A stretch of DNA of 64,000 nt. It comes from Bartonella australis AUST/NH1 (GTDB lineage Bacteria > Pseudomonadota > Alphaproteobacteria > Rhizobiales > Rhizobiaceae). The DNA lies in contig NC_020300.1 of NCBI RefSeq assembly GCF_000341355.1, positions 1-64,000 of the forward strand. Direction: 5' to 3'. The notes beneath the pieces were generated by a model that searched no databases, was not told where the DNA came from, and saw only the letters and a program-made list of their open reading frames with translations. The position numbers were made by a program, and so were the translations under genes. This document shows, in pieces, positions 2,361 to 6,282 of the stretch (position 1 is the first letter of the stretch; each line of letters opens with the position of its first letter).

Positions 2361-3065
2361 ATGCGTGAAATTATTTTTGATATTGAGACAACAGGCTTAG
2401 ATAAAGACAGTGATCGTATAATTGAAATCGGTTGTGTAGAAATGGTTGATCATTATCTCACAGGACGCCGATTTCATGTTTATTTGAATCCGCAGGGCGT
2501 TATGATTTCCGACGAAGTTGTTGCAATTCATGGCTTGACTAATGAACGCTTAAAAGACGAAAAAAAATTTAATGATATAGCTGATGAGCTTTTGGAATTC
2601 ATTGATAATGCGGTGATAATTGCTCACAATGCGAGTTTTGATGTCAGCTTCCTTAACGCAGAATTAGAGCGGATAAATAAACCACTTATCAGCATCAATA
2701 ATGTCATTGATACATTGGCTATGGCGCGCCGCAAATTCCCTTTAGGGCCTAATTCTCTTGATAGTTTATGCAAGCGTTTTGGAGTTGATAACAGTCATCG
2801 TTCTCTTCACGGCGCTCTACTTGACGCAGAGATTCTTGCTGGCGTTTATATAGAGTTAACTGGTGGAAAGCAAGGGACTCTTAATTTTGATGATGGGAGC
2901 AGCATTGGCGTGAATATCCCAAGCAACGAATTTCCTTATGCAGTCAGGGCCCGCCCGCGGGCTCTACCTTCACGGTTAAGTGCGCAAGAAAAAAATATGC
3001 ACGCCGAGCTGGTTAAAAAAATAGGCGATAAAGCTTTATGGAACAATTTCCCCTCTCCTTCATAA
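2361..3065 (+). CDS. dnaQ: DNA polymerase III epsilon subunit (3'-5' proofreading exonuclease)
   Basis: DnaQ is the proofreading exonuclease of the replicative polymerase core. The DEDDh catalytic set is visible: IIFDIETTGLD (Asp and Glu, residues 4-14), IIAHNASFDVSFL (Asp, near 95) and HRSLHGALLDAEIL (His and Asp, near 150). The roughly 60 C-terminal residues after the exonuclease domain contain the region that contacts the polymerase alpha subunit. At 234 residues it is normal for alphaproteobacteria. It closes the maf-aroE-coaE-dnaQ run. In most rhizobia secB follows on the opposite strand; here the next gene is polA. Confidence 0.95.
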   Translation: MREIIFDIETTGLDKDSDRIIEIGCVEMVDHYLTGRRFHVYLNPQGVMISDEVVAIHGLTNERLKDEKKFNDIADELLEFIDNAVIIAHNASFDVSFLNAELERINKPLISINNVIDTLAMARRKFPLGPNSLDSLCKRFGVDNSHRSLHGALLDAEILAGVYIELTGGKQGTLNFDDGSSIGVNIPSNEFPYAVRARPRALPSRLSAQEKNMHAELVKKIGDKALWNNFPSPS

Positions 3066-3106
3066 AGAAAACTCTAAATTGGGAAAGCAGAACTTGCACA
3101 ACTGTC

Positions 3107-3149
3107 AAAAAGAAATGGCCGCTGCGGGGAGGGGAACACCGCAACGGCC
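3107..3149 (-). terminator. Rho-independent terminator of the small RNA
   Basis: The inverted repeat at 3117-3127 and 3139-3149 forms an 11-bp GC-rich stem with one mismatch. On the minus strand it is followed by ATTTCTTTTT (3107-3116). On the plus strand no T-run follows it, so it acts only for leftward transcription, away from polA and toward the dnaQ end. Confidence 0.7.
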
Positions 3150-3235
3150 CCTGCCGTTACGTGGCACCTTAACTATCATAGGAGGAGCAAAACGAAAATC
3201 GCCACACCCCGCAATAATAAAGAAAAGCTCTAGGC
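3107..3235 (-). ncRNA. Probable trans-acting small RNA with anti-Shine-Dalgarno loops (alpha-r7-like position)
   Basis: Read on the minus strand, the dnaQ-polA gap holds two hairpins. The 5' one pairs GTGGC (3201-3205) with GCCAC (3161-3165), and its large loop exposes CTCCTCCT (complement of 3180-3187), a perfect anti-Shine-Dalgarno sequence. The 3' one pairs GGCCGTTGCGG with CCGCAGCGGCC (10 of 11 pairs), has a pyrimidine-rich loop with CCCCTCCCC (3126-3134), and runs into a T-rich tract, so it doubles as the terminator. Rhizobial small RNAs of the alpha-r7 and alpha-r14 type have such CCUCC loops, and from memory the alpha-r7 locus lies beside polA. The 3' end is well placed; the 5' end is a guess because no promoter was identified with confidence. 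Confidence 0.6.
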
Positions 3236-3372
3236 ACCAAACACAGAAAGCAACGGCATCACCCTCATGAAATGCAAAAAAAATGGCTTTTCAGAGGCGA
3301 TTTTGTAAATTTTATAAAAATAAAAATACAAAATGAATTTATTAAAGATTGAGATAGAGAAATGAAATTGAC

Positions 3373-6282
3373 ATGAAAACAGATGACCACCTTTTTTTGG
3401 TCGATGGATCAAGTTATATTTTCCGCGCTTACTACGCTTTGCCACCTTTGAAACGCAAAAAAGACGGGCTTCCTGTGGGGGCTGTGGCCGGTTTTTGCAA
3501 TATGTTGTGGAAATTGCTCTGTGATGCTCGTAGCATGGATTCTGGCGTTATACCGACACATTTTGCCGTTATTTTCGATCATTCGTCCGATACATTTCGT
3601 AAGCAAATTTATCCCCAATACAAGGCTAATCGGGAGGCACCCCCCGAAGATCTTATCCCCCAATTCGCTTTAATACGGCAAGCGACAAAAGCTTTTAATT
3701 TGCCCTGCGTTGAAAAAGATGGATTTGAAGCAGATGATTTAATCGCTACTTATGCGCAATTAGCGACTAAAGCGGGAGCAAAGACAACCATTATTTCCTC
3801 TGATAAGGATTTAATGCAATTGGTGAGTGCGCATGTGTCTCTGTATGATGGGATGAAAGATAAGCACATCGGCGTTTCTGAAGTCATAGAAAAATGGGGA
3901 GTAACACCCGAAAAAATGGTCGATTTGCAAGCTTTAACCGGAGATTCAGCAGATAATGTGCCTGGAATTCCGGGTATTGGTCCTAAAATTGCAGCACAAT
4001 TATTGAATCACTTTGGTTCCCTAGACCTTTTACTGGAGCGTGTAACGGAAATTAAGCAGACAAAACGACGTGAAAATATTCAATCTTATAGTAAACAAAT
4101 AAAAATGTCCCGCGAATTAGTCAGGCTAAAAATGGACGTACCTGTGGATGATGATCTAGACAGTTTTATCTTGGAACCACAAGATGGCCCGCGTTTAATT
4201 TCTTTTCTAAAAGCTATGGAATTTACGACATTAACCCGCCGTGTGGCGGAAGAAACAGCCTGTGATGCGACGGTTATTGACGCACTTAGCATAGATATTG
4301 AATGGGAGAAAACTAAATATAACGGGTCCGATTTGGTTCCTGGAAAGACTAATATAACACCATCTCACGGCGCTTTTGAAAATTCTCCACGGATCTTGGC
4401 ACAAAAACGCAAAAACCAGGCTATCGCTTCAAAGATTACAAGAGATGCTTATGAAACTATCCTTGATGAAGGAGTCTTGAAAGAATGGTTATCGGAAGCG
4501 CAGGAGCAGGGCTACTTCGCTTTTGATACTGAAACGACTTCTCTCGATCCTATGCAGGCAGAGCTCGTTGGTTTTTCATTGGCGCTACGGCCAAATAAGG
4601 CGGCCTATATACCGTTAGAACATGTGGAAGGAAGAGACGATCTTTTAGGAGATGGGCGTATAGCCGCGCAGATTGAGACACAAAAAGCTTTGGCGCTTTT
4701 AAAGCCGATATTAGAAAATCAAGCGGTGTTAAAGATTGGCCAGAATATAAAATACGACTGGTTGATGATGAAGCAACACGGTATTGTCATGCGTCCTTTT
4801 GATGATACAATGCTTTTATCGTATGTTTTAGACGCTGGAACCTTGACCCATGGTATGGACGTTTTATCCCAGCATTGGCTGGGACATACCCCAATTTCCT
4901 ACAAAGATTTAACGCATAATGGAAAAAAAATTACTTCTTTCGCACAAGTGGATTTAAAACAAGCAACCCTTTATGCAGCGGAAGATGCCGATGTAACTCT
5001 GCGTTTATGGGAGGTTTTGAAGCCGCAGCTTGTAGCGCAGGGATTAACAAAAATTTATGAGCGCCTTGATCGACCACTTATAGAAGTTCTTGCAAAAATG
5101 GAAGAGCGTGGGGTTCTTGTGGATAGACAGATTTTATCGCGTCTTTCAGGAGAATTAGCGCGAGCTGCTTCTGTGTTAGAAGAGGAAATTTATCAATTGG
5201 TTGGTGAAAAATTTAATGTCGCTTCACCAAAGCAATTAGGGGATATCATTTTTGGTAAAATGGGCTTGTCCGGGGGAACTAAGACAAAAGGTGGGCAGTG
5301 GTCAACTTCTGTACAGACCTTAGAAGAATTGGCTGTTGAGGGGCACATTTTGCCACGTAAAGTTATTGATTGGCGTCAGCTTGCGAAACTAAAATCTACT
5401 TATGCAGATGCTTTGCCTCATTATATTCTACCTAGAACGGGGCGTGTCCATACAAGCTATTCTTTAGCAACGACGTCAACAGGACGATTATCATCATCTG
5501 AACCTAATTTACAGAATATCCCAGTGCGGACCGCCGAGGGACGTAAAATTCGAGCAGCTTTTATCGCCCCCAGAGGGCATTCGCTGTTATCGGCTGATTA
5601 TAGTCAAATTGAATTACGTGTCCTCGCGCATATCGCGGATATCACAGCGTTAAAAGAGGCTTTTGCGCAGGGGAAAGATATCCACACTATAACTGCATCG
5701 CAAATGTTTGGGGTTGCAATAGAGGGGATGCCTTCAGATATACGCCGACGCGCGAAAGCGATTAATTTTGGCATCATTTACGGTATTTCGGCTTTTGGAT
5801 TAGCAAATCAATTAGGGATTTCGCGCAAGGAAGCAGGCCATTATATTCAGCTTTATTTTGAAAGATTTCCAGGAATTAAGGAATATATGGAAGAGATTAA
5901 GATATTTGCGCGTCAGCACGGTTATGTAGAAACTATTTTTGGACGTCGTATTCATTATCCTGAAATAAAAGCGGCTAATTCACAAGTTCGTTCTTTTAAT
6001 GAACGAGCCGCTATTAATGCACCGATTCAAGGATCGGCGGCGGATATTATTCGCCGGGCTATGATACAAATAGAAACTGCTTTAGAAAAAGAAAAGCTCT
6101 CAGCTAAAATGCTCCTACAAGTTCACGACGAACTGATTTTTGAGGTGCCGGAAGCTGAGATTGAAAAAACAGCAATCCTCGTTAAAAAAGTTATGGAAAC
6201 TGCTACAATGCCGGCGTTATCTTTATCTGTGCCGCTTGAAGTAAAAGTCGTAACAGCTCAAAACTGGGATGAAGCACATTAA
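3373..6282 (+). CDS. polA: DNA polymerase I
   Basis: PolA removes RNA primers and fills gaps in lagging-strand synthesis and excision repair. All three domains are present in 969 residues. The 5'-nuclease occupies about residues 1-300 (FLVDGSSYIFRAYYAL, then GFEADDLIATYA and TGDSADNVPGIPGIGPK). The 3'-5' exonuclease spans about 370-560 with its acidic residues intact (FAFDTETTSLDP, QNIKYDWLM, AAEDADVTLRLW). The polymerase domain has motif A (LSADYSQIELRVLAHIA), motif B (RRRAKAINFGIIYG) and motif C (LLQVHDELIFEVPE). The proofreading site is therefore active, unlike in Taq-type enzymes. The gene starts just beyond the small RNA, whose promoter must lie in or near its leader. Its stop is 14 bases from that of the convergent next gene. 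Confidence 0.97.
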   Translation: MKTDDHLFLVDGSSYIFRAYYALPPLKRKKDGLPVGAVAGFCNMLWKLLCDARSMDSGVIPTHFAVIFDHSSDTFRKQIYPQYKANREAPPEDLIPQFALIRQATKAFNLPCVEKDGFEADDLIATYAQLATKAGAKTTIISSDKDLMQLVSAHVSLYDGMKDKHIGVSEVIEKWGVTPEKMVDLQALTGDSADNVPGIPGIGPKIAAQLLNHFGSLDLLLERVTEIKQTKRRENIQSYSKQIKMSRELVRLKMDVPVDDDLDSFILEPQDGPRLISFLKAMEFTTLTRRVAEETACDATVIDALSIDIEWEKTKYNGSDLVPGKTNITPSHGAFENSPRILAQKRKNQAIASKITRDAYETILDEGVLKEWLSEAQEQGYFAFDTETTSLDPMQAELVGFSLALRPNKAAYIPLEHVEGRDDLLGDGRIAAQIETQKALALLKPILENQAVLKIGQNIKYDWLMMKQHGIVMRPFDDTMLLSYVLDAGTLTHGMDVLSQHWLGHTPISYKDLTHNGKKITSFAQVDLKQATLYAAEDADVTLRLWEVLKPQLVAQGLTKIYERLDRPLIEVLAKMEERGVLVDRQILSRLSGELARAASVLEEEIYQLVGEKFNVASPKQLGDIIFGKMGLSGGTKTKGGQWSTSVQTLEELAVEGHILPRKVIDWRQLAKLKSTYADALPHYILPRTGRVHTSYSLATTSTGRLSSSEPNLQNIPVRTAEGRKIRAAFIAPRGHSLLSADYSQIELRVLAHIADITALKEAFAQGKDIHTITASQMFGVAIEGMPSDIRRRAKAINFGIIYGISAFGLANQLGISRKEAGHYIQLYFERFPGIKEYMEEIKIFARQHGYVETIFGRRIHYPEIKAANSQVRSFNERAAINAPIQGSAADIIRRAMIQIETALEKEKLSAKMLLQVHDELIFEVPEAEIEKTAILVKKVMETATMPALSLSVPLEVKVVTAQNWDEAH

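Follow-up and report, generated by a model that had tools for sequence, protein, structure and literature searches.

Does the intergenic stretch between a dnaQ-like gene and polA of Bartonella australis AUST/NH1 encode a small RNA and, if so, where does this RNA come from and how might it act? We addressed these questions in a stretch of 64,000 nucleotides of the genome (the window), in which two motifs, CTCCTCCT and CCCCTCCCC, lie on the minus strand between the two genes. The original prediction described these motifs as the exposed anti-Shine-Dalgarno loops of a riboregulator at 3107..3235, ending in a GC-rich terminator with a T-run, and likened the position next to polA to that of the ar7 family of rhizobial sRNAs. 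As judged from covariation and synteny, the sRNA gene is very probably real, and it is larger than first described. The best explanation of the evidence as a whole, and one that we consider reasonably probable, is that the RNA is an orthologue of ar7 whose interior was refolded once and that presumably acts in trans through a seed in its terminator loop.

A probable structured RNA beside polA

The predicted sRNA gene lies ~42 nt from the stop codon of dnaQ and ~113 nt from the start codon of polA (Table 1). The span 3108-3259 folds with an energy of -59.1 kcal/mol (z = -4.05), and none of 200 shuffled sequences was as stable. By comparison, the span 3107-3235 has z = -1.58, with 13 of 200 shuffles as stable, because the 5' strand of the outer helix (3249-3257) is left outside it. 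The place first assigned to the RNA was thus correct, whereas the extent was too short.

Table 1. Features of the dnaQ-polA intergenic region, in window coordinates.
Feature	Position	Strand	Basis and remarks
dnaQ-like gene, neighbor convergent with the sRNA	2361..3065	+	ORF list; named from sequence
Predicted small RNA, about 150 nt	3108..3259	-	Both ends inferred; R1 model match at 3111-3257 (137 bits; not independent, as the window's own sequence is among the R1 training sequences); fold z = -4.05
Terminator hairpin P4	3117..3149	-	Columns 111-123 with 132-143; 100% of cells paired; 3 of 12 pairs changed on both sides
CCCCTCCCC, C-rich terminator loop, putative seed; last two bases in stem	3126..3134	-	Sequence; unpaired probabilities
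Helix P1, 3' strand	3153..3161	-	R1 model aligns with ar7 linker of other Bartonella
Helix P2, 3' strand	3164..3169	-	Alignment and consensus fold
Helix P3, 3' strand	3172..3183	-	Alignment and consensus fold
CTCCTCCT, anti-Shine-Dalgarno motif, mostly paired	3180..3187 (minus reading 3187-3180)	-	Sequence; unpaired probabilities
Helix P3, 5' strand, ending in an AGGA-like stretch (GGGG here)	3207..3218	-	Columns 41-52 with 76-87
Helix P2, 5' strand	3232..3237	-	Columns 22-27 with 91-96; 0 pairs changed on both sides
Outer helix P1, 5' strand	3249..3257	-	Columns 1-9 with 99-107; 3 of 9 pairs changed on both sides
Promoter block CGCCTCTGAAAAGCCA, counterpart of ar7 TGCCCTTGAA(T/A)NGCCA	3284..3299	-	Score 14/16; 0 of 200 shuffles
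polA, neighbor divergent from the sRNA	3373..6282	+	ORF list; tblastn relatives

Covariation was evaluated in 26 sequences, consisting of elements from a nucleotide search and nine named Bartonella polA loci, of which 23 were distinct once three exact duplicates had been dropped. Their consensus fold has 38 pairs. Helix P1 joins the 5' end of the RNA to the linker preceding the terminator, helices P2 and P3 lie inside it, and P4 forms the terminator hairpin. Standard pairs occupy 99.3% of the 874 cells (38 pairs in 23 sequences). When the partners are slid by 1 to 3 columns, 33-62% of cells are paired, and the +3 slide keeps 6 pairs and 7 cells changed on both sides. Compensatory changes among relatives, whose absence would have refuted the original prediction, are present at seven pairs and in 14 cells, as against shuffled means of 2.6 and 4.0; either value was reached in 0 of 500 shuffles and further pair types, another measure of covariation, in 42 of 500, these counts overstating significance where sequences are related. 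Covariation is clearest in P1, in which the first pair is GC in 14 sequences, AU in 5, and GU in 4, and the second pair is UA in 18, CG in 3, and UG in 2. Support is weaker for P3 (columns 41-52 with 76-87), the helix bearing the anti-Shine-Dalgarno motif, because its variation is mainly one-sided: 1 of 11 pairs has changed on both sides, and 8 of 11 on one side.

The terminator conforms to the original description, being a GC-rich hairpin of 11-12 bp with CCCCTCCCC at its loop and a T-rich tail after it. Folded by itself, the 49-nt terminator piece has z = -2.62, and 1 of 200 shuffled sequences was as stable; CCCCTCCCC is identical in all 23 aligned sequences. In its loop, CCCCUCCCC, the probability of being unpaired falls from ~1.0 over the first five bases to 0.59 over the next two and to 0 over the last two. 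Both of the motifs are present and the terminator loop is open, whereas CTCCTCCT is mostly base-paired, such that the picture of two exposed anti-Shine-Dalgarno loops applies to one of them. Along CUCCUCCU, partition functions of the 23 RNAs yield mean unpaired probabilities of 0.24, 0.34, 0.84, 0.82, 0.24, 0.19, 0.16, and 0.25. In the window RNA, the first four bases of this internal motif are paired (0.00-0.15) and the last four are partly open (0.80, 0.35, 0.69, and 0.97). Part of the motif pairs in the consensus fold with AGGA (GGGG in the window) of the same hairpin. The motif is altered in eight of the 23 sequences, to TTCCTCCT in four, CTCCTTCT in three, and TTCCTTCT in one. An RNA thermometer was also considered and rejected, as the mean unpaired probability of CUCCUCCU hardly shifted between 25 and 42°C, going from 0.368 to 0.402, and in the window RNA from 0.382 to 0.367.

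A promoter scan listed no sigma-70-type promoter in 2900-3500, and the terminator hairpin was absent from the output of a consensus terminator scan. Rfam at its gathering threshold gave no match in the whole window. A match to rli43 on the plus strand (17.4 bits against a cut-off of 100) was taken as noise in AT-rich sequence.

Relationship to the ar7 family

The ar7 family (RF02342) includes SmrC7 of Sinorhizobium meliloti, which is described as a mapped transcript of 148-150 nt (PMC2780559). According to a survey covering the sRNAs of Rhizobiales, every ar7 member except one adjoins polA, and the family has 29 relatives in Rhizobiaceae, Brucellaceae, and Phyllobacteriaceae; the survey names Bartonellaceae collectively for seven families, that of ar7 included, and does not specify which (PMC3927594). 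Of the 15 non-Bartonella loci in our Rfam scan, 13 carried ar7 above its cut-off at the polA-side place and on the opposite strand to polA (the other two being L052 from Oricola and L078 from Aminobacter), and ar7 was also found at polA of Bartonella sp. M0177 (L028). There was no ar7 match in six loci having the 38-pair fold, which we call the refolded form after the interpretation given below (L002, L019, L020, and L026, and at E <= 1 L001 and L017). Extending the search to 71 Bartonella genomes, we found ar7 over the cut-off at the same polA-side place in 14, with no match reported in the other 57, the window's own genome included; among control genomes, 5 of 14 matched at E <= 10 and 0 of 14 exceeded the cut-off. 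The ar7 model likewise had no match at E <= 10 in 2900-3500, membership requiring at least 60 bits. As a separate observation, one ar7-bearing Bartonella genome has a second, weak ar7-like match (L113; G011:C1:113696-113835, plus strand; 32.7 bits, below the cut-off), on a different contig from its polA-side ar7.

The reciprocal comparison used R1, a covariance model built from the 23 refolded sequences only. R1 matched all 71 Bartonella genomes, 57 at 132-181 bits and 14 at 25.7-42.3 bits, so that each of them has a match, in one form or the other, to the proposed minus-strand structured RNA next to polA. The 14 genomes with weak matches are the 14 that carry ar7, and their best reported match is at the ar7 place, with E-values of 6e-6 to 0.029 that are rough and with "best" meaning best among the 44 candidates per genome that were kept for scoring after a broader first pass. 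The genome scans with the ar7, R1, and ar14 models used stricter filters. Outside Bartonella, in a search of 27 chosen sources separate from the whole-genome scans, R1 matched the ar7 place in six of eight loci at 24.4-34.9 bits, missing L044 and L073, and other matches reached at most 12.2 bits. The alignment between R1 and ar7 covers mainly the linker and the terminator hairpin, leaving the interior unaligned. The two models are nearly equal in length (146 positions for R1 and 145 for ar7).

The nucleotide search recovered the element from 17 of 41 genomes, comprising its own, 16 of 24 others of the same genus and 0 of 16 of the same order, and the eight misses within the genus are all among the 14 ar7-bearing genomes. 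In a PolA tree of 60 distinct rows (from 77, identical ones having been dropped), the window genome's PolA groups among named Bartonella, and a single change separates the two RNA forms (support 100/99), the branch to the refolded clade being long (0.21). The ar7-bearing clade, of which Bartonella sp. M0177 is the member named in the analysis, presumably corresponds to the bee-gut Bartonella. Two polA loci, L042 (recorded as Bacillus subtilis strain SK6B4) and L080 (an Arenimonas MAG), have 68% and 64% identity to the window PolA, in the range of Rhizobiales records; their labels are probably wrong or the records contaminated.

A further link comes from a promoter block that we found upstream of ar7 and that is outside the Rfam definition of the family. 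In all 27 ar7 loci, the block, TGCCCTTGAA(T/A)(A/C)GCCA, precedes the 5' end of the RNA by 38-50 nt, the distance being 38-39 nt in 25 of them; in all 23 refolded loci, where it reads TGCCTCTAAAAAGCCA or similar, it precedes the start of P1 by 39-42 nt. In the window, CGCCTCTGAAAAGCCA begins 42 nt upstream of 3257. When the upstream region was shuffled, the block score was attained in 0 of 200 cases for 49 of 50 loci and in 4 of 200 for L073; this score is not independent evidence, because the consensus was read off the same loci, whereas the constancy of the distance is independent. Since the distance from block to polA varies from 59 to 559 nt while that to the RNA start is constant, the block belongs with the sRNA. 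Its position agrees with the start sites and the transcript of 148-150 nt that have been published for SmrC7 of S. meliloti (PMC2780559).

In a wider set, the block scored at least 13/16 in 60 of the 70 loci from outside Bartonella, in all 15 from ar7-bearing Bartonella, and in all 56 refolded loci, the last of which overlap (L114-L143 include genomes present as L001-L017) and are not independent genomes. TTGAA is kept in 59 of the 60 non-Bartonella and in all 15 ar7-bearing Bartonella loci but in none of the 56 refolded ones, 55 of which read TCTAA or TCTGA. A palindrome, (A/G)TTAC-N4-6-TGTAA, is located just upstream of the block in 47 of 60 non-Bartonella, 0 of 15 ar7-bearing, and 0 of 56 refolded loci. 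With a looser pattern the counts are 55 of 60, 15 of 15 (degenerate), and 3 of 56, respectively. Examples in which the palindrome is directly upstream of the ar7 promoter are L029, L047, and L039. An UlaR-like site has been predicted upstream of smrC7 (PMC2780559).

By its place and orientation beside polA, its promoter block and start, its length, and its C-rich terminator loop, the RNA appears to be a descendant of ar7 (SmrC7/SmelC023/sra03 in S. meliloti), but by the ar7 model, loops, and fold it is not a member of that family. The comparison with ar7 in the original prediction was accordingly right as to ancestry. The two conserved local hairpins of ar7, with loops GUCCCCCGCC and CCCCCUCUCCGGG, are absent from the window RNA, the aligned sequences, and the consensus fold. 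The window RNA differs further from ar7 in that its 5' end pairs with the linker, the core of its -35-like element is changed, and the upstream palindrome is lost.

A proposed refolding of the interior

In the explanation that we favor, the Bartonella RNA would be the orthologue of the alphaproteobacterial sRNA ar7, and its interior would have refolded a single time, on the branch that leads to the main Bartonella lineage. This event would have replaced two local hairpins, both with C-rich loops, by a single long, interrupted hairpin that is closed by the 5' end of the RNA itself. The same lineage would also have altered the TTGAA core of the -35-like element and lost the palindrome upstream of this core, with the place, promoter block, start, length, and C-rich terminator loop retained. 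In most Bartonella genomes searched, the start, length, and end thus appear to be kept and the middle to be folded differently.

Pairing between the 5' end and the linker was compared in 12 of 14 Bartonella ar7 loci (L102 and L103, near copies of L101, were omitted), 13 outgroup loci, and 3 refolded RNAs. The expected number of such pairs is 0-1.3 in the 13 outgroup loci and 0-1.7 in 10 of the 12 Bartonella ar7 loci, 5.9 in L111 and 5.0 in L112, and 8.8-10.6 in the refolded RNAs. L111 and L112 are the first two branches of the ar7-bearing clade in the PolA tree. The 5' end of ar7 RNAs is mostly in a small hairpin of its own. These modeled pairings suggest that the new outer helix may have arisen from an alternative pairing. 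Against so simple a course, the 5' end and the linker taken alone also make a strong duplex in Mesorhizobium L047 and L057 (2 of 200 shuffles as stable), and this duplex is unformed in their folds.

It is possible, and we put this forward tentatively, that, when the main Bartonella lineage arose, a single step both refolded a widely conserved regulatory RNA and changed its control. Promoter position, length, and one seed would have been kept, two ancestral seed loops lost, and a self-locked anti-Shine-Dalgarno element gained, and the dropping of a transcription-factor palindrome would have rewired the regulon. The two deep-branching ar7-bearing Bartonella would then hold both pairings in balance.

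Several other readings of the locus were weighed against refolding of ar7. The interior, being without clear ar7 homology, could have been replaced by other sequence, and an unrelated Bartonella RNA might thus have displaced ar7 locally, with only promoter and terminator inherited. That the ar7 model does not find the RNA fits such a replacement, but the start and total length are the same, the linker and terminator align to ar7, and the ar7-bearing L111 and L112 already favor pairing of the 5' end with the linker; we regard replacement as unlikely. The location of the RNA between dnaQ and polA, at the distances given above, is what would be expected of a cis-acting element that controls polA, as a 5' leader or divergent promoter, or that forms the end of the dnaQ transcript. 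Three features make this quite improbable: the sRNA is divergent from polA, the promoter block keeps a steady distance to the RNA start and not to polA, and the hairpin read on the plus strand has no T-run after it. A polA leader extending across the hairpins is nevertheless conceivable. A short coding sequence is hardly credible. In 22 of 23 sequences, an ATG after CTCCTCCT does open a frame that runs for 22-23 codons, as far as the aligned stretch extends, but the frame has no stop in that stretch, terminator included, L017 has no ATG, a single-base insertion in L001 shifts the frame, and the base changes track pairing. The small ORF was rejected on these grounds.

If refolding of ar7 is the true course of events, the family extends to all 71 Bartonella genomes searched, and the locus offers a before-and-after case of an sRNA that keeps its promoter and terminator and changes its fold. 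Covariance searches alone would score such a refolding as a loss. It would also become testable whether the terminator-loop seed alone is sufficient, and whether loss of the palindrome alters the timing of the RNA.

Possible mode of action and anti-Shine-Dalgarno RNAs

The RNA would be transcribed and would most likely act in trans, its open, C-rich terminator loop UUCCCCUC pairing with G-rich leaders at the ribosome-binding regions of mRNAs and blocking initiation. The internal CUCCUCCU, restrained by pairing, might be at most a second, conditional seed. The C-rich terminator loop is common to the refolded and ar7 forms, and CCCCTC or a similar C-rich stretch also occurs in the terminator loops of the ar7 relatives inspected. 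A C-rich loop is likewise described as the seed of PmaR of Agrobacterium (PMC6234868), resembling the putative terminator-loop seed of the window RNA. Complements of the two motifs (11-12-mers) are not clearly enriched in the genome, numbering 127 for the first motif against 148 for the control and 350 against 325 for the second. Among 30 of the 127 near-matches to the first motif that were inspected, the RNA gene included, one immediately precedes a possible start of an ORF of >100 amino acids.

For SmrC7, no signal was reported with Hfq, from which the authors infer absent or very weak binding (PMC2848018), and nodules are reported to contain ~13-fold more of it than free-living cells do (PMC2780559). 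An early paper suggested that it functions in cell division (PMC2245857). Among the literature matches listed, we found no description of a Bartonella sRNA on the polA side, although the sRNA tables of PMC7717549 may have an entry for one; the words polA and dnaQ are absent from the main text of the B. henselae RNA-seq study (PMC5387305) and of the B. bacilliformis study (PMC7717549).

The two motifs also raise the possibility that the RNA, like those of the ar14/cuckoo type, is specialized for anti-Shine-Dalgarno action and silences many mRNAs through two exposed CCUCC loops. The RNA does contain both CTCCTCCT and CCCCTCCCC, 19 of 23 sequences retain CCTCC at the core of the first motif, and ar14, which is the only Rfam match on the sRNA strand at a relaxed threshold, aligns weakly over its full length (14.4 bits, E 2.7). 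However, this score is far below the cut-off of 58.8. In addition, the internal motif is mostly paired and, as noted, not constant among the aligned sequences, and a better ar14-like candidate exists elsewhere in the same genome. We consider it improbable that the window RNA is of this type. What it has in common with ar14/NfeR1/cuckoo (RF02344) is a CCUCC-type body motif and a C-rich terminator loop; it differs in that its body motif is mostly paired and its genomic place is another. The ar14 family has several hairpins each exposing CCUCCUCCC, a description based on SmelA075/SmelA099 (PMC3927594), whereas in the window RNA one motif is mostly paired and the other reads CCCCUCCCC.

Anti-Shine-Dalgarno motifs are also a feature of BbsR14 of Bartonella bacilliformis, described as two stem-loops with TTCCTCCTAA (PMC7717549). 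This string does not occur in the window RNA but is present in an ar14-like RNA located outside the window in the same genome (L018 1501-1615; G000:C1:106213-106327, plus strand). The ar14-like RNA scores 38.8 bits against the cut-off of 58.8, has a fold z of -5.32, and forms two hairpin loops, holding UUUCCUCCUAAU and UUUUCUCCUCCC, and a strong terminator. In the Bartonella genomes searched, ar14 matches at E <= 0.01 occur in 40 of 71, and 14 are over the cut-off. The ar14-like RNA resembles the published BbsR14 and is a better candidate for an exposed anti-Shine-Dalgarno RNA than the window RNA.
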